From positions 62,001 to 126,000 of the forward strand of contig JAFGGC010000011.1 of assembly GCA_016930715.1 (NCBI GenBank): a DNA stretch of 64,000 bases, read 5' to 3'. Positions within the stretch are counted from its first letter, which is position 1. Every line of letters starts with the position of its first letter. The translations under genes and the position numbers were made by a program. The DNA is from Endomicrobiales bacterium (GTDB taxonomy: Bacteria; Elusimicrobiota; Endomicrobiia; Endomicrobiales; JAFGGC01). This document shows, piece by piece, positions 32,306 to 64,000 of this stretch. The notes beneath the pieces were generated by a model that searched no databases, was not told the origin of the DNA, and saw nothing but the letters and a program-made list of their open reading frames with translations.

Positions 32306-33799
32306 ATGAACGGATCGAAGAATGTTTTATTCCTATCGGCTTCAATAATATTTCTGGCGTCGCTTTTTACCTTGCCCAGGATTTTTATCAACTACGGCGT
32401 CGAGCTTGACGCCGTGCTCGGCCCGATGGCGGCCGAACGACTTGTTGAAACGGGCGCATACACGCCTTCCCGTTTTCCGGGGAACCCCCTTTTTGAGTAC
32501 ATACTCGCCCTTATAACCGCCGGCGGCGGGAACCACGCCGCGACTAATATTTTCGTTTTCCTATCCTATCTCATTTCGATCGTGTTCTTCTTTAGAATCG
32601 TGCGCGAATATGAACAAAGGCATATTCTCACCTTCCTCTATTCCCTTACGCCCATAATACTTCTTAACGCCGCGACCACCATTGACTACATACCGGGGCT
32701 TGCCTGCGTCCTGGCGTCGTACATGTTTTTGAAAAGAGGCGCGGTGGTTTTTTCCGCCCTGTCCCTGGCGGCCGCCGTCGGCTTCAGGCCGACAAACGCC
32801 GCTTTTCTCGTGCCATTTTCTGTTTTCATGCTGCTTTCCGGGAACAGGAAGCGTGTTCATGTTTTCATTCTGTTTTCGTTCGCCGCGGGGGCCCTTTTTT
32901 ACGTCCCGATAATCTGCAGGTTCGGCATACTGCCTGTCATAAGCGTCCCGCCTTCGCCTTTGAGCGTTTTTCAAAACTTGCTTCGGGCTTTTTATAACCT
33001 TGCAATGCTTTTCGGGCCGTTAGCCACGGCATTGCTTGTCCTTCTGGCGGCTCTGGCCGTTTTACGCGGCGCCGGTGCTTCTTCGGAAGCGGATATTAAC
33101 TCATCAGCGAAGAAATACGTACTCGGAATAATACCTTCGTGCATAAAATTGGATTCAGACACGGTAGTCGGGATTTTGGCCGTATTAGTTTTTGTTTTCC
33201 TGTTTTTCATGCATCCCGACGAGACTGCATATCTCATTCCCGCCGTGCCTTTTTTATACGTTCTGCTGCCACGTTTCCTGAACAAGAAATCAATCGTTGT
33301 CCTGACCGCCGTCATATTACTTCACGGATTTTTCACGATAGAGCTTAAGGGGGGCTCGTCCGGAAAACGAAGCGTGGTGTTCCGTCCTTCTCACGGGATA
33401 TTGATGAGGGATTACATACTGAGGAAGGACATCGAAGAAATAAAAAAGGCCCTTGGCACGGCCGAATGGCCCCCTAAAACCGTTGTGATGACCGGTGACC
33501 TGCCTCTGTACACGTATAAAAACACCTACGCCGAACTTGAGGCTTCCGCCATACTGCCCGGTTTTAAACTAAAAGGTCGCGACGTGTACTTCGTTTCCGT
33601 TCTGTGCAAGGAATCCGTTGAAGGCCTGCTGGCTGAAGGCTACAGGATATACGTGTTTTCGGAATCCGCGCCTACCACGGCGATAAACCTTTTCGGCTAC
33701 GATCCCTCATCCTACGATATTACGGTATTGAAAGTGTTGAGCGGCGACTCGTTCTGGCGTGATTTGAGATCAACCGTGTCGTCCCGCGGTCAGCTCTGA
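32306..33799 (+). CDS. Polytopic GT39/ArnT-like glycosyltransferase-type membrane protein
   Basis: 497 aa, many TM segments; GVELDAVLGPMAAERLVETGAYTPSRFPGNPLFEY... The only clear plus-strand gene. Confidence 0.72.
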   Translation: MNGSKNVLFLSASIIFLASLFTLPRIFINYGVELDAVLGPMAAERLVETGAYTPSRFPGNPLFEYILALITAGGGNHAATNIFVFLSYLISIVFFFRIVREYEQRHILTFLYSLTPIILLNAATTIDYIPGLACVLASYMFLKRGAVVFSALSLAAAVGFRPTNAAFLVPFSVFMLLSGNRKRVHVFILFSFAAGALFYVPIICRFGILPVISVPPSPLSVFQNLLRAFYNLAMLFGPLATALLVLLAALAVLRGAGASSEADINSSAKKYVLGIIPSCIKLDSDTVVGILAVLVFVFLFFMHPDETAYLIPAVPFLYVLLPRFLNKKSIVVLTAVILLHGFFTIELKGGSSGKRSVVFRPSHGILMRDYILRKDIEEIKKALGTAEWPPKTVVMTGDLPLYTYKNTYAELEASAILPGFKLKGRDVYFVSVLCKESVEGLLAEGYRIYVFSESAPTTAINLFGYDPSSYDITVLKVLSGDSFWRDLRSTVSSRGQL

Positions 33800-34936
33800 G
33801 TATAGTTTTTCCTGTTTTCTTACCATAAGGTCTATGTCGAATTCCTCGGTTACGGTGTCTTTTGCCGCTTTCCCGAGAGATATCATCAAATCCCTGTTTT
33901 TCAGAAGTCCTGACAGTTTTTCGCTCAAAGCCGCGACATCTCCGGGTTCCGCTAGATACCCGTTCCTGCCTTCCAACACCATTTCCCTGTTTCCGTCAAT
34001 TGAATATGCAACGACCGGCAGGCCGGCGCACATCGCCTCAAGCACTGACCTCGGCAGGCCTTCCCACAAAGATGTCAGCACGAACACGTCGCTTACGGCG
34101 AGTATTTCGTCCACGTCGCGCCGCCAGCCCAGCAGTTTCACGAATTCGCCGGCATTGACCTTGCTTATCTCATCTTCAATCATCTTCCTCTGTTCGCCGT
34201 CGCCTACAACCGCGAACACGGCGTTATCGTTCAGCTTCCTTACTCTGGAAGCGAGGCGGACGAAATCAATCAAGTTTTTCTGGGGTTTGAAAGGCCCGAT
34301 TGTCAGGACGAGCTCCGCGTTTTCACCTATTCCGAACGCACGCCTTTTCGCTTTTCTGTCGGCTTTTACGTTCTTATATTTATCTATCTTGATGCCGCTC
34401 CTTATAAGCCTGTATTTTTCCGCAGGTCCGATCTTATGACGGAGGCCTTTGTCGATGTCTTCCCTGGTCACCACTATGAACCTGTCCGTGAGCGGCGCCA
34501 CCATCCGCTCGGCAATGACGAAAATGCTCTTTATGAAGATATTCTGCCTGTCGTTGAAACCGTATCCGTGATAGGTGTGAACAACGGCCGGGACTCCCGC
34601 AAGGAACGCTGTCACCCTTCCCAGTATTCCCGCCTTTGACGAATGCGTATGTACTATATCGGGTTTTTCCCTCTTTATCGAGAAGTATAGCCGGCAAAGA
34701 GCGGCGATATCGAGCAACGGGTTTACTTCCCTGCGCAGCGCTCCCAAAAATACAGCCTTCAATCCTCCGATGCTCTCAGCTTCCTTGTCCAGCATTCCGC
34801 CCCGGCCGGATATCAAAACAGTCTCGAAGCGGTTCTTGTCGAGGTTCGCGACCGTGTGAAGCGTGTTCTGCTGCGCCCCGCCAAGCTCGAGCATCGTTAT
34901 TACGTGGCATACTTTTATTCTATTACTATTTTCCAC
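33770..34936 (-). CDS. GT4 family glycosyltransferase
   Basis: MLELGGAQQNTLHTVANL...TIGPFKPQKNLIDFVRLA...TSLWEGLPRSVLEAMCAGLPVVAYSI. Confidence 0.93.
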   Translation of the reverse strand: MENSNRIKVCHVITMLELGGAQQNTLHTVANLDKNRFETVLISGRGGMLDKEAESIGGLKAVFLGALRREVNPLLDIAALCRLYFSIKREKPDIVHTHSSKAGILGRVTAFLAGVPAVVHTYHGYGFNDRQNIFIKSIFVIAERMVAPLTDRFIVVTREDIDKGLRHKIGPAEKYRLIRSGIKIDKYKNVKADRKAKRRAFGIGENAELVLTIGPFKPQKNLIDFVRLASRVRKLNDNAVFAVVGDGEQRKMIEDEISKVNAGEFVKLLGWRRDVDEILAVSDVFVLTSLWEGLPRSVLEAMCAGLPVVAYSIDGNREMVLEGRNGYLAEPGDVAALSEKLSGLLKNRDLMISLGKAAKDTVTEEFDIDLMVRKQEKLYSELTAGRHG

Positions 34937-36221
34937 AATTCAGCCGTTCCGCCGCGTTTTTCGCGTCCAGTATGTTCTTTTCGATGAATGAATACTCCCA
35001 CGCACCGTACCTTCCGATGGAAAAAACCCTGTTTCTTGCCAGGAAACCGTTTATCACCTTCCTGGCGTGCGAAACATTTGCGTCGTATATCACGTAAGCG
35101 CACGGTATCTTCAGTATGTTCACAAGCTCTATCTTGTCTTTTGAATTCAGAATCCCCGCGTCCTTCAGCCCGCCGATCACGTCGGCAAGTTCCGTCCTGT
35201 CCCCGCCCTTCGCGTTCTCGCTTACCTCCACGTAAAGCGAGTAACAGCCTTCAGGGGCCATGTTTCTTTCGATATTCGAGTACACTCCCACGCGGTAAAA
35301 CCTGTATTTTTTTTCCGGATAATACACCCACTGGAAACCCGCTGCCGTCCTTCCGGCAGCCCTTGCTTTTCTCACGCCTATATTGAAAACCCTTACCCTG
35401 TTCCATCTCAAAACCGCTGCCGCCCTTTTCACTTCGGCAGGAACGTCTTTGATTTGAGCTATCAGCTCCGGCATTGGAATTGTCGAAACAAGGGTGTCAT
35501 AGAAATATTTTTTTCCCGAAGAAGTACTCACGCGGCCCCGTCTGAGATCGATCTGCTCGCTTGCCGTGTTGTAAACTATATCCTGACCCACGTTCTCCGC
35601 CAGAGCTCCGGCAAACGCCCCGATACCGCCTCTCTTCGGATAGCTGAAATACGCATTATATCCTATGTCTTCTTTCGTGTTTTTCCTGGCGCCTTTTATG
35701 ACGTCGCTTTCCGACGGTACCGGCACGAAATGCTTCACCCATTCACTGGTGAGCGTTTTCGAGGAAACCGTCCAAAGCTTCTCGTTATACGGCCTCATGA
35801 AATGCTTCGTTATACCTTCCCCGAAAGTCTCGTTAGACCAATGCAGGAAATCCCCGTATTTGCCGCGATAATCGGGTTTCTGCAGGAATTTTGCAAGACA
35901 TTCCTTTTTTACTTTTTCAGGGAGGTTCGCGAGGTTTATCTGGAAGGGGTACGGTACGTAGACCGAGTGCGTGTATATTGCCGAATTCCTTCTAATTTTC
36001 GATATATTCGACGAAAGAAGCGACTTTACGAATTTTTTCGCGAAAGGCGTCCTCAAGTGCAGGAAATGCCCGGAATAATCAAAAGTAAAACCGCCTATGC
36101 CCACGGACCGGCACAGCCCACCGGGTTCAGAGTCCCTTTCAAGTATCGCGCAGTGTTCCTTAAGGAACCCAGCGGTGGCAAGGCCCGTTATGCCTGCGCC
36201 TAAAACAAGCGTTCTGGACAT
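34926..36221 (-). CDS. FAD-dependent amine-oxidase/UDP-galactopyranose-mutase-like protein
   Basis: LVLGAGITGLATAGFL (GxGxxG), FTFDYSGHFLHLR, FGEGITKHFMRPYNEKLW. Confidence 0.82.
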   Translation of the reverse strand: MSRTLVLGAGITGLATAGFLKEHCAILERDSEPGGLCRSVGIGGFTFDYSGHFLHLRTPFAKKFVKSLLSSNISKIRRNSAIYTHSVYVPYPFQINLANLPEKVKKECLAKFLQKPDYRGKYGDFLHWSNETFGEGITKHFMRPYNEKLWTVSSKTLTSEWVKHFVPVPSESDVIKGARKNTKEDIGYNAYFSYPKRGGIGAFAGALAENVGQDIVYNTASEQIDLRRGRVSTSSGKKYFYDTLVSTIPMPELIAQIKDVPAEVKRAAAVLRWNRVRVFNIGVRKARAAGRTAAGFQWVYYPEKKYRFYRVGVYSNIERNMAPEGCYSLYVEVSENAKGGDRTELADVIGGLKDAGILNSKDKIELVNILKIPCAYVIYDANVSHARKVINGFLARNRVFSIGRYGAWEYSFIEKNILDAKNAAERLNCGK

Positions 36222-36227
36222 TTTTCC

Positions 36228-37289
36228 CTAATCCACCTTGACCTGACCGAGCTTGGACGTTATGTAAACCGTGAGCACGGCGAGTATACCCAGCAGGGTC
36301 AACGCATACATTATCGTCACCCTCGTCACTAAAAAGGCCCCGAAAGACATAACCACGGCGACACCGTAGGACATAATCAGTATCTGCGTCCTGCTGAATC
36401 CCATTTTTTCGAGCCTCAATGCGAAATGGTCCCGGCTGCCCAGAAAAGGCGACATTCCCTTTTTCCACCTCATGTACATTACAAGCATCGTGTCGTACAT
36501 AGGTATCCAAATGATAAGAATCGGCGCCAGGAGCGCTATGTCGTTTAGCTTCGTGTACGACGTCCCCATCGAAAGCGCCGCGACTATGAATCCTATAGTA
36601 AGGCTGCCAGTGTCCCCCATGAATATTTTGCCCTTTTTGGAAAGATTGTAGGGTATAAAACCCAGGCACGCCCCGGCAAGCGCCGCCGCGCAGAAGTTCA
36701 CGTATATCTGTTCGGTGGGAAGCGCTATGAACAGGAACGCGAGGCTCGCTATCACGGCGATTCCGCTCGACAATCCGTCCATTATGTCGATTATGTTGAA
36801 AGCGTTCGTTATGCCTATGACCCATATCAGGCTTATTATCAGCGCCACCGCGTATGGCGATATGAAATGCACCCTTATATCGAACATTATCAGGGCCATC
36901 ACCGCCAGAGCCTGAATCAGAAACTTTGCCTTGAATTTCAGCCCCTTCGGGAGGATGTCGTCTATCAGCCCGAGCAGTATTATAACGACGCTCCCTATCA
37001 TTATACCCCTGAGGCTTCTCAACGTACCCGACGGAAAATGAGTAAACAGTCGCACGATAAAAAGGCTCGTCAGCCACCCCAGCCATATTGCTATCCCGCC
37101 CAGGTACGGCGTCGGGTCCTTGTGGGTCTTGACGTTCGAATGCGGATGGTCGAGTATCCCGAATTTCTGGGCTATAATCCTCAACACCGGCGTCAGCGCG
37201 TACGCGATCGCGAAAGACATTATCACGGTCACGAAATACAGGTATTCCACCCTGCTAGATATTAACTTTATAAACTCCGCAATATTCAT
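36228..37289 (-). CDS. WecA/MraY-like polyprenyl-phosphate sugar-1-phosphate transferase
   Basis: DPTPYLGGIAIWLG, NAFNIIDIMDGLSSG, FMGDTGSLTIGF, HFALRLEKMGFS. Confidence 0.93.
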   Translation of the reverse strand: MNIAEFIKLISSRVEYLYFVTVIMSFAIAYALTPVLRIIAQKFGILDHPHSNVKTHKDPTPYLGGIAIWLGWLTSLFIVRLFTHFPSGTLRSLRGIMIGSVVIILLGLIDDILPKGLKFKAKFLIQALAVMALIMFDIRVHFISPYAVALIISLIWVIGITNAFNIIDIMDGLSSGIAVIASLAFLFIALPTEQIYVNFCAAALAGACLGFIPYNLSKKGKIFMGDTGSLTIGFIVAALSMGTSYTKLNDIALLAPILIIWIPMYDTMLVMYMRWKKGMSPFLGSRDHFALRLEKMGFSRTQILIMSYGVAVVMSFGAFLVTRVTIMYALTLLGILAVLTVYITSKLGQVKVD

Positions 37290-39198
37290 TCTCGTAGATC
37301 CTTTCTGTTTTTTCCCTCACAAAGCGCCTGAGCGTTTCCTTTGCCTTCGCCGTAAGTTGCTTTTCGAAACCGAGCCTTTCAAGCTCGGAATAATTTACGA
37401 ATAGATGCGTTATGCCGTTTTCCCTGAGGCTTTCCGCCAATTCCTCCGTGCCGCCCGCGCCGTTTGACCACGCTACAAGGGGGTTGCTGTCAAAAACGGT
37501 GGGAACTATCGCGTCGTGACTGCAGTAATACCTGCGCGTTTCTCCCCAGTAAAGGACTTTAGCCCCGCCCTCGAGCTGGTTTATACCGCCGTGCACGGCA
37601 TCGTAATAATTCAGTTTCCTGGACAGATAGCTGTTCCTGCCTTCCCCGGATATCACGGGGGAGTAAGGGTCAACCTTAGCCATAACCCAGTGGAATATCG
37701 CGAAATTGTGCAGGAGAGCCAGAACCATGAAAATAATGACGGTAATCCTTAGCAGGTTATTCCTGACGAGATTCTGAACGCCTATGGCCGTCAATATGCA
37801 TATCAGGGGAAATACGGGCACAATGAACCTCAGAACCTTGCCCGTTATCGTCCAGCATGTCAAATAGAATACCACATAATAAATCAATATGATTTTCATT
37901 TTATCAATTTTTACATCGGCAAACAAGGCGGGCAGGAACATCAGAAAAACAGGCCCCAGAATATCGAATCCTCCCCCGAAACTCCAGGGCGAAAACGTCA
38001 TCTTCCAGGGCAGAAGCAGGAGTTGCCTGAAGCTTTCCACCGGAACGCCGTGAGAGCGTATGTGAGTAAAATACTCCGAAGCCTGCTCCGCCGTTATCTT
38101 TGACGCCTTGAAAAGTTCCGTACCCCAGGGTGCTATGGGATTGTTGAACAGCACGGCGTTCTTTATCAGCCACGGAGAGAATACGGAAATTGACACCGCA
38201 AGAAATATCAGCGTCGTCTTAAGCGTTTTTTCGGGTTTTGAGTAATATATGATTACAGGCACGAGCATTACTATGTTGAGAAGCCCGATGTATTTAATCC
38301 CCGTTGCGAAACCGGCGAAAACGGCCGAAAACACCAGCATCTCGTTCTTTTCCGTTTCCGTCCACAAAGAAACGGCGTACACGCTCAATAACACGTAAAA
38401 CGCCAGCCCAAGATCGACGTATGTCCCCGTGGATATGAACATCAACAAAGGCGTCAGCGACCAGATAACGGCGGCTTGTATCGCAACCTGTGAATTCCAG
38501 TATTTCTTCGACATCAAATAGACCAATAAAGCCGTGAGCGGAAAGAATATCCACCCCGCGAGGTTCGCGATTATATCGTTCTGAATCTTCATGCAGAAAC
38601 CGAATATCATCTCCATATTCTGCGGGAACGAAGCGAAGATATTGTCGCTCACGAGAAAATACCTGCCCGCCCTTATGTATTCCTGGGGAAGCGCCAGATG
38701 ATAGACAAGCGAATCGAACTGCGTAGGCGGGGCCAGCGCTCCTATCAGCGTGCTTATGAACGAAACCGCCGATATCGCTGCAAATACTTTAAGCGAATTG
38801 CGTATTCTCCCCCGTACCCTTTTGCCTACCGCGAGAAACTGAACTATCCCGAAAAACAGCAGCGCGAAAAACACTACCCTTCCCATGAAACCCGCTATTG
38901 TCAGCACGAACACGATAACGCTTATAACGCAAAAACCAAGCCCGGTGGCAAAAACGAATCTCTCCGCGTGGTTCAGTTCGGTCTTGCGCCAGAAGCAATT
39001 ACCCCAGCCGTTGGCCGAAAGCACCACCAAAGCTATCACGAAGACATCTGAAACCATTCCGGCATTAAGCGTTATCTTGCGGAGCACCGGCAGCTCGCCC
39101 GCCATGTGCTGTATCGGGAACAAAGCGTAGTAAACCGCCAACACGACGCCTGCCCAGGCGATAAAAACTAAGTACTTCAGCATTTCCTTCGTGTTCAT
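37255..39198 (-). CDS. Polytopic GT39-like glycosyltransferase
   Basis: 647 aa multi-TM; APPTQFDSLVYHLALPQEYIRAGR with N-terminal acidic loop. Confidence 0.8.
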   Translation of the reverse strand: MNTKEMLKYLVFIAWAGVVLAVYYALFPIQHMAGELPVLRKITLNAGMVSDVFVIALVVLSANGWGNCFWRKTELNHAERFVFATGLGFCVISVIVFVLTIAGFMGRVVFFALLFFGIVQFLAVGKRVRGRIRNSLKVFAAISAVSFISTLIGALAPPTQFDSLVYHLALPQEYIRAGRYFLVSDNIFASFPQNMEMIFGFCMKIQNDIIANLAGWIFFPLTALLVYLMSKKYWNSQVAIQAAVIWSLTPLLMFISTGTYVDLGLAFYVLLSVYAVSLWTETEKNEMLVFSAVFAGFATGIKYIGLLNIVMLVPVIIYYSKPEKTLKTTLIFLAVSISVFSPWLIKNAVLFNNPIAPWGTELFKASKITAEQASEYFTHIRSHGVPVESFRQLLLLPWKMTFSPWSFGGGFDILGPVFLMFLPALFADVKIDKMKIILIYYVVFYLTCWTITGKVLRFIVPVFPLICILTAIGVQNLVRNNLLRITVIIFMVLALLHNFAIFHWVMAKVDPYSPVISGEGRNSYLSRKLNYYDAVHGGINQLEGGAKVLYWGETRRYYCSHDAIVPTVFDSNPLVAWSNGAGGTEELAESLRENGITHLFVNYSELERLGFEKQLTAKAKETLRRFVREKTERIYENEYCGVYKVNI

Positions 39199-40253
39199 AG
39201 TTCCTTCAAGGCGTTATCGATGGAATCGAACATCTTCTCGCTGCTAAACCCCCTGCTCTTCTTATAAGCGTTTTCAGCGTATTCCTTTCTTCTATCTTCG
39301 TTCCCAGCAAGTTCGATAACGGCGTCCCTGTACCCGGATGCGTTCCCCGGTTCCACAAGTATGCCTTCCCTGCCGTCTTCCACGAGCTCTCCTATCCCTC
39401 CTACCTTAGCCGCTATGACCGGTAATCCCGCCGCCATGGCCTCGAGGGCCGCCTGAGGAAAGCTCTCTTCCCTTGACGGAAGAAGAAAGACGTCGCACGC
39501 TGGAAGGAGGTCCTGGACGTCCTCTCTCATCCCAAGAAGCCTGAACCTCCGCTCTATGCCGTATTTTTTGATTCTGTTTTCTATCAGCCTTCTTTGCGGG
39601 CCGTCGCCCGCGATCACGAAAATGGCGTCGCTCACGCCTCTTGCTATTTCCGGCAGATAATCGGTGCCCTTGTCGTAATGAAGGCGCGCCACGCATATTA
39701 CAGCCTTCCTGCCTTTTTCTATGCCGAGCGCCGACCTCAGCTCCTCCCTTTTATCCGGCCTCCTGTCGAAACGCTTGAAATCCACCCCGTTGTGCACCAC
39801 ACGTACCCTGCTCCTGTCGATCCCCTCAACGCCGACGAGCCGATTTTCCGCTGCGTGCGAATTAGCCACTACCATATCGCACCACCTGAGCGTGGACTTG
39901 TCAATGAGCGTGTAAAACGGGTTTTTCCATATGTCTATCGCCTGCTGAAACGCCATCACCTTAGTCCCCGAAAGCCTGCCAGCCAGCCGCCCGAAAATGT
40001 GCCCCCAGTACAAAAAGGTCAGGATGCAGTCGTAACCGTTCTTTTTCAGGGTCTTCGCCAGTTCAAGCGGATTGCCGGATTTCTCGACGTTCACGCCCGA
40101 CCGCTCAATCCTTCTTCCGATTTCACCGTTCCTGTTAATATACCCCACGGTTATGTCATTGCCGCCCTTCAGGTGCGCGACGAGGCACTCAAGGAAGCGT
40201 TCCGAACCTCCGATATTGAGGTTCGTGGTTAAAAAATAGATTTTCTTTTTCAT
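39195..40253 (-). CDS. GT4 family glycosyltransferase
   Basis: NIGGSERFLECLVAHL...FLLPSREESFPQAALEAMAAGLPVIAAKVGGIGELV. Confidence 0.94.
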   Translation of the reverse strand: MKKKIYFLTTNLNIGGSERFLECLVAHLKGGNDITVGYINRNGEIGRRIERSGVNVEKSGNPLELAKTLKKNGYDCILTFLYWGHIFGRLAGRLSGTKVMAFQQAIDIWKNPFYTLIDKSTLRWCDMVVANSHAAENRLVGVEGIDRSRVRVVHNGVDFKRFDRRPDKREELRSALGIEKGRKAVICVARLHYDKGTDYLPEIARGVSDAIFVIAGDGPQRRLIENRIKKYGIERRFRLLGMREDVQDLLPACDVFLLPSREESFPQAALEAMAAGLPVIAAKVGGIGELVEDGREGILVEPGNASGYRDAVIELAGNEDRRKEYAENAYKKSRGFSSEKMFDSIDNALKEL

Positions 40254-41173
40254 TTTATGGTTTCAATCTCTTTGGCTTCTTCCTTGAACTTAGCAAGGCT
40301 CCAACCGGTCTCTGCGAGCTCCCAAAGGCCGCCCGCTATCCCGAGCACGTAGTTTACCGCCACTATGCAGGCTGTTATCAAGAAGGCCTGCGGGTCGCTG
40401 GCCCCGTATTTTGGCAGTATTGCTATGTAGAACCCTTCTCTTATGCTCACGCCCAGAACTGATATCGGTATGAGGCCCGTCAGCGCCCCGAGCGAAACCA
40501 GGCCTCCGACCTCAAGAACGTCCAGGTCCAGACCGAAGCACCTGAACATGAAATACCCGGAAATAATGAAGCTTGTCTGGCTGAAAATCGAAAAGAATAC
40601 CGCTTTCAGCACACCCCTTAAAGAGTACTTCGAAAAATCAAGGACTATCTCCTTCCATATTTTTATCTTCCTTCTCAGCATGTATCCGGCGAAGAGTATT
40701 ACCACCAGGACCAGCCACATCTTCTGGCTCTTGAAAGGCGCGGGCAGTGTCATATACAGCAGAAACCAAGTAACCACACCTACAACGCGGTCCGTGGTCA
40801 CTATAACGCCCGCGTTGATGTAATCCCTTGATTTTTGCCGGCCGATCTTGAATATCCTGACCGCGTCGCCCGCAACGGTCGTAGGAAAGAACAGCATGTA
40901 GAATATGCTTAAAAGGTTTATCGAATAATATCTTATAAGCCCAATAGCGTTGCCGGGCCATATCTCACGCCCGAGAATCATTGTCCTTCCCGATATGATT
41001 AATATCGCGGCAAAGCCGGCAAGTATCGACAGCGAGCCGAAGTGGTATTTCGCCTGTCTGAATATGTCGTCAAGAAGGCTCACGTCAACCTTGAAGAATA
41101 TCCACGAAAAAATAGCACAGATGAACGCGGCCTTCAAAACGAGCAGCATAACCTTGACTTTAAGTTTTTTCAT
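40250..41173 (-). CDS. UPF0104/lysylphosphatidylglycerol synthase TM-region (flippase-like) protein
   Basis: Multi-TM; INLLSIFYMLFFPTTVAGDAVRIFKIGR and LGALTGLIPISVLGVSIREGFY. Confidence 0.85.
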   Translation of the reverse strand: MKKLKVKVMLLVLKAAFICAIFSWIFFKVDVSLLDDIFRQAKYHFGSLSILAGFAAILIISGRTMILGREIWPGNAIGLIRYYSINLLSIFYMLFFPTTVAGDAVRIFKIGRQKSRDYINAGVIVTTDRVVGVVTWFLLYMTLPAPFKSQKMWLVLVVILFAGYMLRRKIKIWKEIVLDFSKYSLRGVLKAVFFSIFSQTSFIISGYFMFRCFGLDLDVLEVGGLVSLGALTGLIPISVLGVSIREGFYIAILPKYGASDPQAFLITACIVAVNYVLGIAGGLWELAETGWSLAKFKEEAKEIETIK

Positions 41174-41176
41174 AAA

Positions 41177-43832: not shown

Positions 43833-43835
43833 TTG

Positions 43836-46131: not shown

Positions 46132-46133
46132 TA

Positions 46134-54866: not shown

Positions 54867-55994
54867 CTATCTCTCACCTCTGAGGACTTTCCTGACCGAG
54901 TCTGCCGCGTCTTTCCACTGCCATTTTCCGGACATTTTAACCGAGTTCTCACAGAACTTCTTCAACATTTCCCTGTCGGATAAGAGTTTTTTTAAAGCTC
55001 CACCGAGGGCTTCGACCGTACCGTCTTTAATCAAATAGCCGTTGTATCCGTCCCTGACCAGTTCCGGTATCCCGCCGACATCCGTCCCGACTACCGCCAG
55101 TCCAGCAGCCAGCGCTTCGTTGACAACGTTAGGCATCCCTTCGTCGACCGAAGGCACCAGAATCGCGTGAGATCTCGCGTAGTGTCCTTTCAGCTCTTCG
55201 CGCCCGGCCCAATTCACGAAACTCACCCTCTCGGCCTCCCCCATCCTCTCCGCCATAGATTTCAGTTTTCTCTCCATAGGACCCGAACCGATAATGGTCA
55301 AACTGATTCCCGGTTTCTTGATTTCCGAAAAGGCCTTCAAGACAACGTCGGGCCGCTTCTGAGTCACAAGACGGCCTATGAACAGGAGATTGATCGTTTC
55401 CGCGCTTTTCATTGCCGGGTCCGCGTGAAAATCCTCTGTATAGTTGCCGTTCGGGATAACGTTCACTTTCTTGTCCGTACTTTTCTGCGCCAGCTCGCCC
55501 ATGTAGCGGCTATTCGCTATTAGTGCGTCGGCCGATTTCCACACCTTCATTATCAACGGCTTAAGGACCATCTGGTACGCGAGCAGTTCCTCCTTCAGGA
55601 AACCCGGGACGTCCCCGCCTCTCAACGATATGGCGTATGGTACCCCGGACGATCTCTTCATCTCGTACGCTATCAGACCCTCGGGCAGCGTGAAATACGC
55701 AAGTGTCTTTTCGGGTTTGAAACCGCCTGAAACCGTTCTTAGGTATTTTCCGGCTGTCAGATAATACTTGAAAAGCTCCGTCACGCCGCATCCGAACATC
55801 CTTTTTCTGTTTATATCAAGCCGCACCAGCCTGTAACCGTAGATGTCTTCTTCGTTTTTCAGGCCGCCATAACCCGTGCTGACGAACAGGACCTTTTCCC
55901 CCATTGCAGCGAGGTGCCTTGCTGTCTGCGCCGCGGCGTTTCCCGCGCCGCCTCCCAGCGGCGGATGCTCGTGGCAAAGAAGAAGTATGTTCAC
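54867..55994 (-). CDS. GT4 family glycosyltransferase (GTG start)
   Basis: VNILLLCHEHPPLGGGAGNAAAQTARHL...VPSVDEGMPNVVNEALAAGLAVVGTDVGGIPELV. GTG at 55994 forms a GTGA overlap with the upstream stop; the first ~104 codons of the listed ORF are shadow. Confidence 0.9.
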   Translation of the reverse strand: MNILLLCHEHPPLGGGAGNAAAQTARHLAAMGEKVLFVSTGYGGLKNEEDIYGYRLVRLDINRKRMFGCGVTELFKYYLTAGKYLRTVSGGFKPEKTLAYFTLPEGLIAYEMKRSSGVPYAISLRGGDVPGFLKEELLAYQMVLKPLIMKVWKSADALIANSRYMGELAQKSTDKKVNVIPNGNYTEDFHADPAMKSAETINLLFIGRLVTQKRPDVVLKAFSEIKKPGISLTIIGSGPMERKLKSMAERMGEAERVSFVNWAGREELKGHYARSHAILVPSVDEGMPNVVNEALAAGLAVVGTDVGGIPELVRDGYNGYLIKDGTVEALGGALKKLLSDREMLKKFCENSVKMSGKWQWKDAADSVRKVLRGER

Positions 55995-57274
55995 GCGCCC
56001 CTCCGCTTCGCGCAGTATCGCTCCGCCAGCAAGAAAACCGCGTAAGAGGCGTATATCATCATGAAGGGCATCATCGGCAGGCGGTACCGTACCATCGGAT
56101 AAAATACCACGAAAAGGATCGTCTGGCTCATAATGAACGCCAGGAAAGCGTACTGCCTGGGCGCCGCACCCACTGAAAGCACTATGCCCGCTATGCCCAG
56201 CATTATTACCACGCCGTCCGACAAGAAGCTCGTTATCCTTACGGCCCAGGTCGGCATTCCCGAAATGTTGTTTATCCTCGGGTGCTCCCTCGGCCAAAAA
56301 CCCCACAGGCGCCAGAGTTTTATCAAATGCCTTTTCACCGTAGCGAGCGGCGAACCGAAAATCAACCCTATGGCTTTTTTTCTTGAGAACGCGTCCCTTT
56401 CGCCAGGCGGCACTCTTTCAAGCTCTTTCGACACTTCCAGGTTCACGTAATTTTCCTCGGTTAGAATGTCCGACGATCCGATGTATTCGTTGTTCCCCTG
56501 CCAGAGAAGCACCCATATGCCGCTCTTGTTCGGAGTGGCCTGGGCGCTCCTTAAAAGCATCGAGTCCGATATTTTGTAGTTCCTCCAGACCCAGGGCGCC
56601 AACACCGCCGCGAAGGACATAAAAACAACAAATGACATCAGTATCCTGCGGCTTACCCTGCCGCTTTCCAGCATCAGGACCAGCAGAACCGCGAACGGAA
56701 CGAAAACGACGAACACCTCCCGTGTCAGTGACGCAAAGCCCGACGCGATCCCGGCCGCGGCGTACAACGCCGTTTTCCCGGTCCTCAATGCCTCGATGAA
56801 AACGGCGATGCTCAGGACGACAAGCATCGTGAAAAAGGTTTCCGAAAGAAGGTGGGCGCTGTAAAAAACGAAGTACGGGTTCAGTGCCATCAGAAACGAC
56901 GCGCAAAGACCTATCCCGGTACCGAAAACGCTTTTTGCCGCGTAGAACAATAGCAGAATGGTCAACGCCGAAAGCAGGGCCTGAACCAGCCTCGCCGCGA
57001 AAACACTGTGCCCGAAAACCGCGTAAATGCCGGACAGGAAAACCGGGTAGCCCGGAACCCTTGCGGTCGAAGGTTTCCCGTCCATTTCAACGTATCCCCT
57101 GCCCTGCGTGAGGTTCCACGCGAGAGTGTCGTAACCTCCGGCATCCGGAAAAATGAGCGTAGAATTCCTGTTATGCCAGGAAAATCCAAGCCTCAATATC
57201 AGCCCTAACGCGAACACCGCCAGAAGCAGTCTGGTCGATTTTTTGGTCATTATTTCCGTGTTAAATACCTTCAT
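55991..57274 (-). CDS. Polytopic GT39/ArnT-like glycosyltransferase
   Basis: FPDAGGYDTLAWNLTQGRGYVEMDGKPSTARVPGYPVFLSGIYAVFG. Confidence 0.88.
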   Translation of the reverse strand: MKVFNTEIMTKKSTRLLLAVFALGLILRLGFSWHNRNSTLIFPDAGGYDTLAWNLTQGRGYVEMDGKPSTARVPGYPVFLSGIYAVFGHSVFAARLVQALLSALTILLLFYAAKSVFGTGIGLCASFLMALNPYFVFYSAHLLSETFFTMLVVLSIAVFIEALRTGKTALYAAAGIASGFASLTREVFVVFVPFAVLLVLMLESGRVSRRILMSFVVFMSFAAVLAPWVWRNYKISDSMLLRSAQATPNKSGIWVLLWQGNNEYIGSSDILTEENYVNLEVSKELERVPPGERDAFSRKKAIGLIFGSPLATVKRHLIKLWRLWGFWPREHPRINNISGMPTWAVRITSFLSDGVVIMLGIAGIVLSVGAAPRQYAFLAFIMSQTILFVVFYPMVRYRLPMMPFMMIYASYAVFLLAERYCAKRRGA

Positions 57275-57275
57275 T

Positions 57276-58373
57276 TCAGGCGTTCCTTGCGAAAAAACGC
57301 CAGCTCCTGCCCATCCTTCCCGGATACCGGCATGTGATGTCTATTTGCTTCAGGGACGTTTCCTTCGCGAAGCTTTCGACGTCTCCCTTTTTAAAAAAGT
57401 TTATTATGGGCACCGTGATGTGGTCCTGGCAGATCCAGCATACTCCCGCCCAGCTGCGGTCAGCGTACTGGTTGAAAGGCACGCATTCGGCCGCTTTCGA
57501 AAATCCAGGTAGTTTTCTTAGTGCCCTGTACAGAACATTGAACAGGTAGAGCGCCGTGCCGAACAGGTAACTCAAGCCCCTTGACCATCCGAAAGGTATC
57601 CTGCGCGTTACAACCCTGATGGCTTTCAGGGGGTATTTGATGCCGCTGTGTCCGTAGACCCAAAGAAAAAGCGCGGCCCCGGGTTTCAGGAAACACGCAA
57701 GATGCTGGACTCCCTCATTGGGCGAAGGAAGATGGTGTATCACACCTATGCAGTATATGATGTCGAATATTTTTTTCAGCGGAAGGTAGTATATGTCGCC
57801 CTGAAAAAAGTACGCGTTCTCGGAATTCTTGAATATCGTGTTTTGCGCCACGAGAACTGCTTCGCTCATATCGAACGCGATGAGCGTTTTCGCGCCGTAT
57901 TTTTTCGCGAAATACGCGAACCTGCCCATTCCGCATCCGGCGTCCAGCACGACCTTATCCTTGAAATCCGCCGGCGAGAGGTGTTCCCCGAGCACGTGCC
58001 TGAACTCTGATTCGTATTCCGCCAGCATGCTGGAATATATAGACCACCCGTATTCGTAGCCCTTGGCGACTTCCTTTGAGCGCAGCGACCTGTCTTTTTT
58101 AACGTCGGGAACACCCCTGTGTTCTATGTTGAGGCCGTATTTCGAGACAAAACCGTCATAACCGCGCACGAGCTCGCCGATTATTTCCTTGCGGAGTATC
58201 CTCGGAACGGACTCGATTATCGGATATGCCGACCCGCATTTGGCGCATTCCAGCACACCCTCTGCCACGTCGCCTGAATCCCCGGACGAAGCGTCGTCGG
58301 TCAGGAAAACCTTCAGGCTGAATTCTGAACCGCACTCAGGACATACCACGTATTCAAGAAAACGTCTTTTCAT
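57276..58373 (-). CDS. Class I SAM methyltransferase with Trm112-like N-terminus
   Basis: YVVCPECGSEFSL...ECAKCGSAYPIIESVPRIL; VVLDAGCGMGRFAYFAKKYGAKTLIAFDMS. Confidence 0.93.
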   Translation of the reverse strand: MKRRFLEYVVCPECGSEFSLKVFLTDDASSGDSGDVAEGVLECAKCGSAYPIIESVPRILRKEIIGELVRGYDGFVSKYGLNIEHRGVPDVKKDRSLRSKEVAKGYEYGWSIYSSMLAEYESEFRHVLGEHLSPADFKDKVVLDAGCGMGRFAYFAKKYGAKTLIAFDMSEAVLVAQNTIFKNSENAYFFQGDIYYLPLKKIFDIIYCIGVIHHLPSPNEGVQHLACFLKPGAALFLWVYGHSGIKYPLKAIRVVTRRIPFGWSRGLSYLFGTALYLFNVLYRALRKLPGFSKAAECVPFNQYADRSWAGVCWICQDHITVPIINFFKKGDVESFAKETSLKQIDITCRYPGRMGRSWRFFARNA

Positions 58374-58417
58374 GGTTGAGAAATACTTCCTCGGAATTAT
58401 ATTGATATTTCTATAAG

Positions 58418-58446: not shown

Positions 58447-58544
58447 GACGCCTGCGAGAGCGGAAAATTCGGTTGGCGGTTTGTTGGATGGTGCGCGGCA
58501 GGGAACCGATGAGCGCGGAATGGACTGCGGTTCGTATTGTATTT

Positions 58545-59975
58545 TCAAGCTTTATTTTGTCCGATGAAAACTTTCATCAGACCGGCGGCCCCCTTTATTT
58601 CGCCGATCAAGGCGTCCAAGGTCCTTGCTTTCATCAGACGCCTCAACACGATCCTTGGCCTGAAATAAAAATCCCTGTGGACCTTTCCGTAATAGAACAA
58701 CAATCTTTCCCTGGAAACCGTCGGCAAGTTTATGTTGCTTTCCGACATTGTGTAGCATGACCATCTGCAGGCGGAAAGATATCCCTTCGTTTTCGCCCAT
58801 TCGTACAATTCCGTGCCGGGATAGGCGGTAGTTATATTGAAATGCACCTGGTCGGGATCCAGACGAAATGCGAAATTTATTGTCTTTTTTATCGTTTCTT
58901 CGGTCTCGCCGGGATTTCCCAGCATGAAAGACGCCCTGGTCTCTATGCCGGCTTTCCTTGCTTCCTTGACCGCTTTTTTCACCTTTTCCAGGTCAATCTT
59001 CTTGTTTATGCTTTCAAGTATTTCTTCGTCCGCGCTCTCGACGCCAAAGAGAACGAGATGGCATCCCGCGGATTTCATTCGTTTCAGAAGTTCCTCGTCT
59101 ATCAGGTCGGCCCTCGTGAAACACGACCAAGACACGTCCAGTTTTTTCTCGTTCAGCAGGTCGCAGAACTCCATCACGGTTTTTCTGAAAACGGTGAAAG
59201 CGTCGTCATAAAACGCTATCTCGCGGACTCCGTACCTGTTACGGAGCAGCTCGACCTCCTCCATTATGTTCCGCGCGCTCCTTTTCCTTGTCTTTCCGAA
59301 AAAAGTCCTGTAGCAGAAGGTGCACCTTCCGGGGCAGCCCCTTGTCGCGAATATGCTCATCGCCGGGAGCCTCTTGTACGAACCTATCGCCGGATAATAC
59401 TTTTTCATCGGCAGGAGATGATACGCCGGCGGCGGTATCTTGTCAAGATCGCCTATGAGAGGCCTGTCCGGGTTGTGCCGTGTTTTCTGAGCGCCGTCCC
59501 TGTACGATATTCCGGCGATTTTTCCAGGATCAGCGCCGCTCACGATCTCCGCCATCGTTTCTTCGCCTTCCCCCCTCACTACCATATCCACGTTTTTCGA
59601 AGAAAGAACCTCTTCGGGCATCACCGTTGGATGCACTCCTCCCATTACTACTTTTACATTCGGAAATATCCTTTTTGCAATCTCCGCTATCCTGAGCGCG
59701 TTTTCTATCAACGGCGTCGTCGCCGTCAAACCCAGGTATTTCGGACGGAATTCCGCCTTGCGCAGTATTGCTTCCAAATCCGCGATCGAATATTTCTCTG
59801 CGGTGGAATCGATTATCCTGCATGAGAATCCTTTTCCCTCCAGGTATCCGGCCACGTAAGCCATACCGAGGCTGGGCAGGCAGCTGCCGATCTGTTTCCA
59901 GAAATTCCTGTCGGATTCTATTATCCAGGGCGGGTCTATGAACAGCACGTCTATCGCTTTTTTGTTTTCACTCAT
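58545..59975 (-). CDS. Cobalamin-binding-domain radical SAM protein
   Basis: DVLFIDPPWIIESDRNFWKQIGSCLPSLGMAYVAGYLE...GGVHPTVMPEE; ATRGCPGRCTFC. ATG at 59975 overlaps the upstream stop (ATGA). Confidence 0.94.
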   Translation of the reverse strand: MSENKKAIDVLFIDPPWIIESDRNFWKQIGSCLPSLGMAYVAGYLEGKGFSCRIIDSTAEKYSIADLEAILRKAEFRPKYLGLTATTPLIENALRIAEIAKRIFPNVKVVMGGVHPTVMPEEVLSSKNVDMVVRGEGEETMAEIVSGADPGKIAGISYRDGAQKTRHNPDRPLIGDLDKIPPPAYHLLPMKKYYPAIGSYKRLPAMSIFATRGCPGRCTFCYRTFFGKTRKRSARNIMEEVELLRNRYGVREIAFYDDAFTVFRKTVMEFCDLLNEKKLDVSWSCFTRADLIDEELLKRMKSAGCHLVLFGVESADEEILESINKKIDLEKVKKAVKEARKAGIETRASFMLGNPGETEETIKKTINFAFRLDPDQVHFNITTAYPGTELYEWAKTKGYLSACRWSCYTMSESNINLPTVSRERLLFYYGKVHRDFYFRPRIVLRRLMKARTLDALIGEIKGAAGLMKVFIGQNKA

Positions 59976-60658
59976 TTCCAGAACCTGTATTTTAACAGCG
60001 TCCATATCGCTATGAACCCGTCTTTGACCTTTATCTTTTTTCCTTCCGAGAACTTCCTTGGATTGTACGAGATAGGCACCTCTGCTATCTTTATCCCTTT
60101 TTTCAGTATCTTCGCAGTTACTTCCGGGCAGAACTCGAACCCGTCGCTTTCGATTGTTATTGACTTGATAATGTCAGTTTTGAAAACCTTGTATCCGGTC
60201 GGCTCATCAGTTATGAAAGTCAAGTACAATAAGTCCGTCAGTATCGTCAGCAGCACCCCGCCCAGCGCGAACGAAAGTACCGAGTACCTGTTCTTCCGGC
60301 TCAGGGTTCTTGAACCGTAGACAACCTTTGCCCCGATCTTCTCGAAAGGCTCCAGCAGCTTCGGGTACTCGTCGGGGTCGTATTCCAGGTCCGCGTCCTG
60401 TATTATCACCACGTCCCCGCTGACTACCCCTATCCCTTCGCGTATGGCGGCGCCCTTTCCCGAGTTTTTTTCCCTGCAAACAAGCCTTATCCTCTTATCA
60501 CCGGCCGCCAGCCTCTTGAGTATCTCCCGAGTGCCGTCGACGGAACCGTCGTCCACCACCAGGATCTCCGACACCTCCGGCCTTGCGCGGACCTTGCCAA
60601 TCAGCTTTTCTATGTAATTCTTTTCGTTATAAACGGGTATTAAAACCGACGTTTTCAT
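59972..60658 (-). CDS. GT2 glycosyltransferase (DPM1/DPG-synthase-like)
   Basis: MKTSVLIPVYNEKNYIEKLI, VDDGSVDGTREIL, IIQDADLEYDPDEYPKLLEPF; start at internal ATG 60658. Confidence 0.94.
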   Translation of the reverse strand: MKTSVLIPVYNEKNYIEKLIGKVRARPEVSEILVVDDGSVDGTREILKRLAAGDKRIRLVCREKNSGKGAAIREGIGVVSGDVVIIQDADLEYDPDEYPKLLEPFEKIGAKVVYGSRTLSRKNRYSVLSFALGGVLLTILTDLLYLTFITDEPTGYKVFKTDIIKSITIESDGFEFCPEVTAKILKKGIKIAEVPISYNPRKFSEGKKIKVKDGFIAIWTLLKYRFWK

Positions 60659-62421
60659 TGCGATCTCCGGTAAATGTCTATATCCGGATTCAGCTGCGAA
60701 AAAGGAATATGCGCCTTGAATATCCACGACCTTTTCACGGACTCAAAACGCTTTATCAACCCGTACTCGCCCTTGATAACTTCGGGGTCTATCGTAGACG
60801 TCCCGTCGCCGCGCGTTACGATATATTCCACCTTTTTCATATCTTCCGATAAAGGGTTTCTTATCAGGGCGATCCTGTAGTCCGCGAACCTGAAAGGGGG
60901 CACGAACGCCGGTTCCGGCATCGCCGCCAGCCCTATCACGGCACCCTGCTTTATGTTAACGTTTATCCATTCGGCCGACAACGTCCTCGTTGAATGTGGA
61001 GAGCATTCAACGGCGTACTTCTTCATCAGAACCGCGTCGTTATTCACTGGTTGGACAAGAAAAGCCGCTGATAAGGCAAGGAACAATGCCTTTTTCGCGA
61101 ATATTCCGTCGATGAACCTCGCGGCGAGCATTATCGCCAGCACGTGAGCCGGCAGAAAGAAGCGAGAAAGATGCATCGTGTCCGGGCTTCCCTGAAGCAG
61201 ATAGACGAAGGCCGCCCCGGATGTTAGCGACACGCCCAGCATCACCAGGTCCGCCTTTTCTCGTTTAAGGCCCGCGTATAGAATACCAAGCGCCGACATC
61301 ACGAAAACGGCCGGCGTCATTATGTTGGGAGTGTTCTCGAACAGAATCTTCGATATCCCGCTAAAAGACAAACCCGACGCGTAGACCCCCCTGGAACCCT
61401 TCATTTCGGAAACAAGATCCGTGAACTTCAATATCCAGTAAGGATTGGTGACAACGAACAGCAATCCGGCCGCCAGAAACGCCACCGCAAGGTTTTTTTC
61501 GGAGGCGTAACCGTCTTTCTTCCTTGTCAAGATATAAGAAATGAACGGCGCTACCAGCACCGTGGAGTATATCACTATCGACGACGCCGACAGAGCTCCG
61601 AAAGCCCCTGCAAGCGCGAAATACTTCGTTTTCGGGGCCCTTGTCACCATAAGAAGCGAAAAATACACGCAGGCCAAAAAGAACATTAGTGATATAACGT
61701 AAGGTTTCATAATGTGCGCCTGGAACACGAGCCCGGGATACAACGCCACGGCCGACGCCGCGAGATACGCCGCCCTGAGCGAATATGAGTTCTTCACTAT
61801 CAGGTACACCAGAACTATAATGACCGCCACGGCAGCAGCGTTAACCCGCCTGCCCAGTTCAAATATTTTTCCCATCTGCCCGGGATTTTTGAAATAGTAC
61901 CTGATGTCCCTTTGCAGCTTTATGGCGCCTGTCAAATGAGCGGCCCCGAAAACCGCTCCCATTCCGTAGATGTATGCCCCGCCGTACGCGAACATCCTGG
62001 GATTCAGGTCGAGCTTCCCGGGCTTCATTGAGGAAAGCGACACCAGCGTCATCTGTTCGTCCGTGTGAGTTGACCTGAGATAATACGGCCTCATGAAATT
62101 GGCGAGCGTTCTCTCGCCGCCGTCAAAAAATATGTTTCCGCCGGAAGTAATACCCATGCTTTTCAGGACGGGCGTCATATACGGCTTCGAGCCGTCCCTG
62201 AGCCTGCCGACGGGACTGCCCCCCTCGGAATGTTCGTATATATTGTCTCTTGTCCGCTTCATCGTATCGAAGAACGAGTCCACGGCGTGTTCTTGGCATG
62301 AAAGAAGCGAGATCCTTTCGGCGGAAGGAAGACCCCAACCCGCTCCGGTTCCTGATATTACAGCCGCCGCAAGCGCTATCAACGCCACCGATACGGCTTC
62401 AACATATTTTTTCTTACTCAT
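60655..62421 (-). CDS. Polytopic GT39-like protein with long N-terminal extracytoplasmic region
   Basis: GAGWGLPSAERISLLSCQEHAVDSFFDTMKRTRDNIYE...DEQMTLVSLSSMKPGKLDLNPRMFAYGGAYIYGMG. Confidence 0.78.
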   Translation of the reverse strand: MSKKKYVEAVSVALIALAAAVISGTGAGWGLPSAERISLLSCQEHAVDSFFDTMKRTRDNIYEHSEGGSPVGRLRDGSKPYMTPVLKSMGITSGGNIFFDGGERTLANFMRPYYLRSTHTDEQMTLVSLSSMKPGKLDLNPRMFAYGGAYIYGMGAVFGAAHLTGAIKLQRDIRYYFKNPGQMGKIFELGRRVNAAAVAVIIVLVYLIVKNSYSLRAAYLAASAVALYPGLVFQAHIMKPYVISLMFFLACVYFSLLMVTRAPKTKYFALAGAFGALSASSIVIYSTVLVAPFISYILTRKKDGYASEKNLAVAFLAAGLLFVVTNPYWILKFTDLVSEMKGSRGVYASGLSFSGISKILFENTPNIMTPAVFVMSALGILYAGLKREKADLVMLGVSLTSGAAFVYLLQGSPDTMHLSRFFLPAHVLAIMLAARFIDGIFAKKALFLALSAAFLVQPVNNDAVLMKKYAVECSPHSTRTLSAEWINVNIKQGAVIGLAAMPEPAFVPPFRFADYRIALIRNPLSEDMKKVEYIVTRGDGTSTIDPEVIKGEYGLIKRFESVKRSWIFKAHIPFSQLNPDIDIYRRSQ

Positions 62422-63154
62422 TGAATTTTCCCACGGCTATTATCGACTGACCGTAAAAACTTGAAAACATTTTATCGAAAGTCCTGATTACCGGTATGGC
62501 GTATCTGTCGAACAGTCTGGCCATAGCCCCGGAGGATTTGTCGTGTATCCTGACGCCCATTATCCTGTTGGCCACGAACCACCCTATGGCGCCGAAGAAA
62601 TTGAAATAGAACACTTTTTCCCCCGTTATCCCCGCCTTCGAGAACAGTTCTGCGACGTCTTTCTTTTCAAACCTTAAAAAGTGCCCGGCTTCCCTGTCGA
62701 TGCTCCCGTAAAGCATTTTTCCGGCCGGCGCTAATATAACCACCCTTGCCTTCGGCGCGCAGCGTCCCACGGCCTTCAAGAACCCGGCCATATCCTCAAT
62801 GTGCTCGAGGACGTTCATCATGAACACGGTGTCATACCCTCCGCCCACAAGCTCCTTTTCCAGATTCGGGTCAGCGTTGCCGGCAAGCGAGCCCTGCCTG
62901 AAACTCGCGTGCTTTTCGCCACCGAACTTCTCCTTCAGGTGCTCTATGACGTCGGCACTTATGTCCAGACCAGCGTATCTTTCGGACCGCGGGACTATTC
63001 TTTCAGCCATGCTCCCGTAACCCGGCCCGATCTCGATGACCCTTCTTCCCAAGTACGACCCTATAGTGTCGAATATCCAGTCGTAATAATTCCTGATGCC
63101 GGTCTGAGCCGGTATTATCAGCGACAGCCCTTTTATTTCTTGACTTTTGTTCAT
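62414..63154 (-). CDS. Class I SAM methyltransferase
   Basis: VIEIGPGYGSMAERIVPRSERYAGLDIS; YDTVFMMNVLEHIEDMAGFL. Confidence 0.93.
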   Translation of the reverse strand: MNKSQEIKGLSLIIPAQTGIRNYYDWIFDTIGSYLGRRVIEIGPGYGSMAERIVPRSERYAGLDISADVIEHLKEKFGGEKHASFRQGSLAGNADPNLEKELVGGGYDTVFMMNVLEHIEDMAGFLKAVGRCAPKARVVILAPAGKMLYGSIDREAGHFLRFEKKDVAELFSKAGITGEKVFYFNFFGAIGWFVANRIMGVRIHDKSSGAMARLFDRYAIPVIRTFDKMFSSFYGQSIIAVGKFNE

Positions 63155-64000
63155 AAGATTTCGTTAATGGCATGCACCAGCTTTTCGGTTGCCTTGTGGA
63201 ATGAATAGACCTGTTCGGCGTCTTTCCTCGCGTTCGCGCCCATTCTCGCTCTTTCGCCCGGATTGTTTATCAAGTATTCTATTTTCTCCAGCCACTCGCC
63301 TGCGTTTCCCGCCAGGTAGCCGTTATGGCCGTCTCTTATCAATTGCCGGTTTATGCCCACCGGCGACGCCACCGACGGTATCCCCATCGCCATGTACTGA
63401 AGCAGTTTGTACCCTCCCTTGCCCCTCGTCCATTCATCGTCTTTCAATGGCATTACGCCTATGTCAAACCTCGCGAGGTTCCCTACTTCCGTGTCGAGTT
63501 TCCATTCCGCTATCTCAAAGCCCGCAAGATCCGCCATCTCCGGATCCGCACCTATCAAAAGGACTTCCGCTTTCCCGTATTTCCGCGTTACCCGCCTTAA
63601 CAGCTCGGTTATCTCCTTCAAATATATCGTCGTCGTCCTGCTGCCTATCCATCCGATGACCACTTTTTCTTTCACCGTATTTTTTCGCGGCGCGTATCGT
63701 TCAGTGTCAATGGGCCCCGTTATCTTTAAAACGTTGCTTTTGCCCACGTGTTCAGCGTTATGGTCGTTCTCTAGCACTATCAAGTCGCTGTTTCCGACAA
63801 TATTGTCGAAACGTTTCTTAATTTCCTCTTCTTTTTCCTTCAGCCCGGAGTCCGTTTCGTGTATCCTGAAAATTGCGTCGTCAAAATCAAAAACTATTTT
63901 TTTACCTGTTTTTTTAAGTTTTTTGACCGTGTCGTGGTCAAGAAGCACCTTTTGCATGAACAATACGTCGTATCTTCCCGCCAGGCTCACGAATCTGAAA
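63151..64000 (-). CDS. GT4 family glycosyltransferase (5'-truncated at window edge)
   Basis: IVFDFDDAIF...KVVIGWIGSRTTTIYLKEI...GYKLLQYMAMGIPSVASPVGINRQLI. The frame stays open to 64000 (FRFVSLAGRYDVLFMQK). Confidence 0.9.
   Translation of the reverse strand, partial: FRFVSLAGRYDVLFMQKVLLDHDTVKKLKKTGKKIVFDFDDAIFRIHETDSGLKEKEEEIKKRFDNIVGNSDLIVLENDHNAEHVGKSNVLKITGPIDTERYAPRKNTVKEKVVIGWIGSRTTTIYLKEITELLRRVTRKYGKAEVLLIGADPEMADLAGFEIAEWKLDTEVGNLARFDIGVMPLKDDEWTRGKGGYKLLQYMAMGIPSVASPVGINRQLIRDGHNGYLAGNAGEWLEKIEYLINNPGERARMGANARKDAEQVYSFHKATEKLVHAINEIL

Follow-up and report, generated by a model that had tools for sequence, protein, structure and literature searches.

The stretch of DNA studied here, the window, comprises 64,000 nucleotides (C22:62001-126000; contig JAFGGC010000011.1) of the genome of an Endomicrobiales bacterium of the phylum Elusimicrobiota (GCA_016930715.1; 2.30 Mb, 45 contigs, 92.5% complete), and the subject of this work is a putative envelope-glycan locus that occupies it from position 33770 to its right end. 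In this block, a Pfam scan found 25 genes, all on the minus strand, and bore out the counts of the original prediction, a reading of the letters alone: four glycosyltransferases of family GT4 (one of them truncated where the window ends), three of GT2 and five PMT_2/GT39-like ones, together with four class I methyltransferases (MT), four radical S-adenosylmethionine (SAM) proteins, two flavoproteins, a carbamoyltransferase, a WecA-type protein and a UPF0104 (LPG_synthase_TM) protein. The description of all four radical SAM proteins as cobalamin proteins needs correction, since the B12-binding domain was found in three and was not detected in rSAM_b (46811-48289). The statement that most starts and stops overlap agrees with the 15 overlaps seen among 24 gene junctions. 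The genes, in window coordinates, are as follows.

33770-34936, minus: GT4_a, GT4 glycosyltransferase, last of the three phylum-wide core genes (Pfam Glycos_transf_1)
34926-36221, minus: FAD_a, UDP-galactopyranose-mutase-like flavoprotein, Arg176 replaced by Phe (profile against PDB 4dsg, E 4.8e-67)
36228-37289, minus: WecA-type polyprenyl-phosphate sugar-1-phosphate transferase, initiator (PF00953, 111 bits)
37255-39198, minus: GT39_a, GT-C glycosyltransferase, part of the conserved end (PMT_2; 40-43% orthologs adjoin WecA in G002 and G004)
39195-40253, minus: GT4_b glycosyltransferase (Pfam; 46% ortholog in G004)
40250-41173, minus: UPF0104_a membrane protein, possible lipid-sugar flippase (PF03706; 35% ortholog adjoining GT2_b in G004)
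41177-42580, minus: rSAM_a, B12-binding radical SAM protein (PF04055 and PF02310; CxxxCxxC)
42573-43832, minus: GT39_b, one end of the low-GC3 cassette (PMT_2; GC3 0.498; tree partner a G004 gene)
43836-45233, minus: FAD_b, flavoprotein like UDP-galactopyranose mutase, Arg176 equivalent kept (PDB mutase, E 3.5e-20; residue check)
45223-46131, minus: MT_a, class I methyltransferase (PF13489)
46134-46826, minus: GT2_a, candidate DPM1-like polyprenyl-phosphate-sugar synthase (PF00535; top PDB match 5mlz, dolichol-phosphate-mannose synthase, E 2.9e-21)
46811-48289, minus: rSAM_b, radical SAM protein, B12 domain not detected (PF04055 only)
48286-50028, minus: GT39_c, other end of the low-GC3 cassette (PMT_2; 36% homolog in G004, nearest in the tree)
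50025-50897, minus: GT2_b, ArnC-like, two membrane helices predicted by hydropathy (PDB 9bhc, ArnC, E 6.3e-17; 56% ortholog in G004)
50907-52610, minus: CarbT, O-carbamoyltransferase of the NodU/TobZ family (PF02543 and PF16861; PDB 9s2t, E 2.2e-69; 65% ortholog in G004)
52607-53395, minus: MT_b, class I methyltransferase (PF13489)
53409-54866, minus: rSAM_c, B12-binding radical SAM protein (PF02310 and PF04055)
54867-55997, minus: GT4_c glycosyltransferase (PF00534; 43% ortholog in G004; start chosen near 55997, with a longer reading in the list of open reading frames)
55991-57274, minus: GT39_d, GT-C glycosyltransferase (PMT_2)
57276-58373, minus: MT_c, methyltransferase with a Trm112-like N-terminus (PF13649 and PF03966)
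58545-60005, minus: rSAM_d, B12-binding radical SAM protein, nearest named relatives HpnJ, BchE and AprD4 (PF04055 and PF02310)
59972-60727, minus: GT2_c, paralog of GT2_a (52%) (PF00535; 61% homolog in G002)
60655-62421, minus: GT39_e, GT-C glycosyltransferase (PMT_2; 34% homolog in G002, nearest in the tree)
62414-63154, minus: MT_d, class I methyltransferase (PF08242)
63151-64000 and on to L009:218, minus: GT4_d, GT4 glycosyltransferase that runs across the window end (Pfam)

The left limit of the locus lies at 33770, where a 30 bp overlap with a convergent plus-strand gene is found. Extension of the flanks, as the original prediction had advised, revealed that on the right it goes on for 16.3 kb, giving a total of about 46.5 kb (C22:95770-142263, the right end being 80263 in window-extended coordinates). 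In this continuation (L009, to the right of the window end), the order is two methyltransferases, rSAM_e, a flippase of the MurJ/MOP family (L009:2908-4440, 2.9 kb past the edge) and a DegT aminotransferase, followed, after a gap of 568 bp, by a GT4, a UPF0104 protein, a GT2, a 672-residue YfhO-related protein (unk672), an AsnB-like amidotransferase, a YfhO-like protein and a Wzy_C protein (L009:14704-16263). Thus, the claim that no Wzx, Wzy, Wzz or ABC exporter is present stands for the block, the apparent lack of Wzx and Wzy being an artefact of the window edge. The flippase scored 169 bits, short of the cut-off for the murJ equivalog, against 409 and 302 bits for two other copies in the genome; it is therefore regarded as a divergent, spare copy, the true MurJ probably being the one on C38 (409 bits). 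No Wzm or Wzt was found among the locus proteins scanned, and no genome-wide search for them was made.

Comparative synteny, also advised in the original prediction, identified a related locus in Elusimicrobia bacterium RIFOXYA2_FULL_47_53 (G004, MGVE01000008.1), a member of the same order and of a different family. This locus lies in the same setting, starting after PilQ, and its ends are alike. One of them reads WzyC-YfhO-AsnB-unk672-UPF0104_b-GT4_e (identities of 34% for YfhO, 54% for AsnB, 41% for unk672, 54% for UPF0104_b and 42% for GT4_e), and the other reads GT4_c-CarbT-GT2_b-GT4_b-GT39_a-WecA-FAD_a-GT4_a (43%, 65%, 56%, 46%, 40%, 63%, 46% and 53%, respectively, with 35% for UPF0104_a). 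The middle is reshuffled and carries a PF01943 Wzx, a UDP-sugar dehydrogenase and an epimerase read by eye as WecB-like. Alike ends around a variable middle are typical of O-antigen and capsule loci, and this arrangement was found in part in two further relatives, namely G003, with a compact version of about 18 kb and the same ends, and G002, which keeps the WecA end and has many additional radical SAM genes. GT2_b and UPF0104_a adjoin in G004, and seven extra genes lie between them in the window. Six of these seven, which are consecutive (42573-50028), show a low GC content at third codon positions (GC3; mean 0.564 versus 0.637 for the rest), a run matched in 0.02% of gene-order shuffles when all positions were scanned within each shuffle, its length of six having been chosen after the values were seen. 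These six genes fit an inserted cassette.

The repeating neighbourhoods of methyltransferase, GT39, glycosyltransferase and radical SAM genes that had been noticed earlier are real, in that four non-overlapping blocks of at most five genes each contain all four classes. This regularity was matched in 0.55% of gene-order shuffles (p ~0.005), with a statistic picked post hoc, after the order had been seen. Two instances of the strict order MT-GT39-GT-rSAM are nothing out of the ordinary, being reached in 7.7% of shuffles; a GT39-GT2-rSAM-MT run is also present in G004. Growth of the locus by module duplication, which these repeats had suggested in the original prediction, is not supported by the phylogenetic analysis as a recent event. 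Identities between paralogs of the window are about 22-35%, with GT2_a and GT2_c (52%) as the exception, and supported trees joined GT39_b, GT39_c and GT2_b to genes of G004, and GT39_e and GT2_c to genes of G002 (the tree with GT39_c and GT39_e is small, with four rows). Because four of the six GT39/GT2 paralogs, namely GT39_b, GT39_c, GT39_e and GT2_c, thus have supported partners in other bacterial families, recent duplication in place is unsupported for them; for GT39_d and GT2_a, which group with genes of other families only at weak support, the case is weak. Independently recruited and reshuffled cassettes are the better fit to the data. For the radical SAM family, where the tree gave no resolution and the best BLAST hit of rSAM_a is rSAM_d and vice versa, an old duplication is possible.

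What is new with respect to the original prediction, which did not single out the flavoprotein, is that WecA, FAD_a and GT4_a form a core that recurs in most of the phylum. FAD_a was detected in 153 of 201 genomes of the phylum (61 of 65 genera), and a WecA match in 56 of 81 relatives, about 49 of them of the close type. In all 14 genomes of the order that were read, WecA adjoins FAD_a, a figure that attests the conservation of the pairing and not its presence, as these genomes were selected by their best WecA matches; GT4_a directly follows FAD_a in 11 of them, and a contig end interrupts in two more. Among 20 genomes from 17 other families, selected for FAD_a, WecA stands immediately before it in 16, and GT4_a lies within a few genes in 13. 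No FAD_a match was found in 13 genomes of other phyla, a weak negative because these were picked solely for having a WecA-type gene.

The FAD_a profile covers UDP-galactopyranose mutase (UGM) of the eukaryotic or long type (4dsg, 3ute) almost over its full length. Seven catalytic residues were checked in 34 sequences with the numbering of TcUGM, mapped after correction of a chain offset of +3. Six of them (His62, Asn201, Arg327, Tyr395, Arg423 and Tyr429) are invariant, whereas the position of Arg176 holds Phe in 30 sequences, Tyr in four and Arg in none. In TcUGM, for which these residues were named, the change of Arg176 to Ala is reported to impair the enzyme strongly (PMC4192007). FAD_a thus lacks the full catalytic set in the sequences examined, and an assay would be needed before it is named a UGM. 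FAD_b, in contrast, retains the equivalents of Arg176, Arg327, Tyr395, Arg423, Tyr429 and His62, and for its Asn201 column two alignments disagree. A tentative idea, which we consider unlikely, is that FAD_a would be a distinct sugar ring mutase of the flavin N5 type, acting on the polyprenyl-pyrophosphate-linked sugar made by WecA and not on a UDP-sugar, the loss of Arg176 and the gain of an aromatic residue marking the change.

Concerning the radical SAM proteins, the CxxxCxxC motif and a B12-binding domain occur together in rSAM_a, rSAM_c, rSAM_d and rSAM_e. HpnJ and AprD4, named relatives that act on sugar substrates, have the same radical SAM core and a similar architecture (rSAM_d matched AprD4, PDB 6fd2, with E 2.4e-30), but the NCBIfam scores lie far under the cut-offs: rSAM_d reached 278 bits against 577 for HpnJ, and neither of the two proteins scanned attained the cut-off of any named family. 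HpnJ forms a cyclitol ether from lipid-linked glucosamine (PMC12583986). A literature search on radical SAM proteins in glycan loci of Elusimicrobia or Omnitrophota returned nothing useful. C-methylation, deoxygenation or a ring change of a sugar are possible reactions.

All these observations could be integrated by assuming that the block is the larger part of a Wzx/Wzy-type locus for a surface heteropolysaccharide, probably heavily decorated and most likely an O-antigen-like polymer, a reading to which we assign a probability of about 0.72. The original idea of an envelope polymer made with polyprenyl-phosphate sugars is retained, as the WecA-type initiator, the DPM1/ArnC-like GT2 and the GT39 enzymes fit assembly on polyprenyl (pyro)phosphate. 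What the data show are the gene content, the extent of the locus, its alike ends with a reshuffled middle and the retention of WecA together with Wzy_C; we infer the attachment of the polymer to lipopolysaccharide (LPS) and each of the following reactions. WecA would load a sugar-phosphate onto polyprenyl phosphate, and GT4 and GT2 enzymes would elongate the chain on the cytoplasmic face, with one or both flavin mutases supplying or making a furanose-type unit. Decoration could be carried out by the methyltransferases, the carbamoyltransferase, the AsnB-like amidotransferase and the B12-radical-SAM enzymes, and flipping by the MurJ/MOP protein, perhaps also by the UPF0104 proteins. DPM1/ArnC-like GT2 enzymes would make polyprenyl-phosphate sugars, to be added outside by GT39/YfhO-like GT-C enzymes, and the Wzy_C protein would polymerise or ligate the product. 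CsbB-YfhO and ArnC-ArnT are known pairings of a synthase with a GT-C partner; GT2_a and GT2_b appear DPM1-like and ArnC-like, respectively, with several putative GT39/YfhO-like proteins nearby, although GT39_d matched PDB entries at chance level only.

This reading is favoured by the presence of initiator, flippase, Wzy_C protein and glycosyltransferases in a single cluster, by the divergent, spare character of the flippase copy and by the related locus of G004. It is also favoured by 16 genomes of symbiont genera (at least 90% complete), in which LpxC was matched throughout and PilM never; WecA and Wzy_C are both present in eight of these genomes and both absent in the other eight (Fisher p 0.00016). 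In line with an O-antigen, LpxC, the sole marker used for the lipid A pathway, is found in this genome and matched in 72 of the 81 genomes searched. The locus shares with Wzx/Wzy O-antigen and capsule loci the WecA-type initiator, the MOP flippase, the Wzy_C protein, the many glycosyltransferases and the alike ends with a variable middle, and differs in its many B12-radical-SAM and GT39 genes, the adjacent type IV pilus operon and the lack of Wzz. Several facts weigh against it. No Wzz lies in the locus, and the two matches in the genome are on C39 and C9; Wzz is usual in such systems, not strictly defining, and some Wzy loci keep it elsewhere. The Wzy_C domain cannot separate polymerase, ligase and oligosaccharyltransferase, and the genome has eight matches to it, any other of which may be the partner. 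No LptD in Endomicrobiaceae was reported by a published survey (PMC11257099), which makes the LPS route in the lineage uncertain. Finally, the even split of WecA and Wzy_C among the symbiont genomes does not represent 16 independent events, because these genomes are related, and in two of them the LpxC matches are fragments.

The same genomes bear on the notion that the Wzy_C protein, in the manner of TfpO/PglL, moves a lipid-linked glycan onto type IV pilins. In favour of it, PilQ, PilO, PilN and PilM (L009:16336-19870, L011:3-1007) lie directly upstream of the Wzy_C gene. The PilQ-Wzy_C adjacency recurs in G003 and G004, a prepilin peptidase and a PilT-like ATPase adjoin Wzy_C in G025, and three additional families have a PilQ-like secretin close to the WecA core. 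However, PilM had no match in any of the 16 symbiont-genus genomes, and the retention of WecA together with Wzy_C in eight of them argues, suggestively only, against a pilin role, an argument weakened by the survey's statement that competence functions and pilins persist in these symbionts (PMC11257099). The enzymes of the locus also greatly outnumber those that a short glycan on pilin would require. Pilin O-glycosylation appears quite improbable. The adjacent secretin, and GH2-like genes close to pilM, could alternatively speak for a capsule or secreted exopolysaccharide unrelated to LPS and leaving by a secretin-like or Wza-like route; but the secretin belongs to the PilM-N-O-Q operon, and a separate locus on C39 has the Wzz and Wzy_C matches and the WecA-like gene expected of such a system, making this very unlikely. 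That the product is a specialised glycolipid and not a polymer, its lipid part being the substrate of the radical SAM enzymes, finds a precedent in HpnJ, a relative of rSAM_d that acts on a lipid-linked amino sugar (PMC12583986). The NCBIfam scores given above speak against it, and the MurJ and Wzy_C genes point to a glycan that is flipped and polymerised or transferred, so we hold it to be extremely improbable. An XrtA/PEP-CTERM exosortase system was rejected: the AsnB-like protein resembles its amidotransferase (583 against a cut-off of 817), but the genome has no PF09721 exosortase match.

Other glycan-related genes were noted in the genome. Three adjacent GH2/GH72-like proteins are encoded near pilM (L011:2169-6840), followed by a 1089-residue protein without a Pfam match (L011:7184-10453). 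Two adjacent large Wzy_C proteins of 749 and 790 residues lie at C24:42037-46667 (L033), with similar pairs in G001, G002, G003, G004, G006 and G007. On the same contig (C24:143088-156891, L035), six large proteins of 556-721 residues, three with PMT_2 matches, stand in a row before a GT2 gene. A second glycan gene group (C37:165198-178635, L039) includes GT9-resembling proteins, two radical SAM-like ones and a 774-residue GT39-like one. A GT2 gene at C42:3905-6110 (L044), with a GT39-like neighbour, is 77% identical to the GT2 that adjoins WecA in G001; in the genome studied here it lies on another contig.

The locus, read as one for an O-antigen-like polymer, is one more variable surface-glycan cluster, ordinary in its general plan and unusual in its enzyme content, in a phylum whose envelope chemistry has been little studied. 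The many B12-radical-SAM enzymes suggest unusual sugar chemistry. The core of WecA, a UGM-like flavoprotein devoid of Arg176 and a GT4, with the flavoprotein present in most genomes of the phylum searched and WecA lost jointly with Wzy_C in reduced symbionts, marks a shared envelope step, the enzyme chemistry of which is open to test. If the role considered for FAD_a were true, this flavoprotein would define a core step, common to the phylum, in the making of the envelope glycans of Elusimicrobiota.

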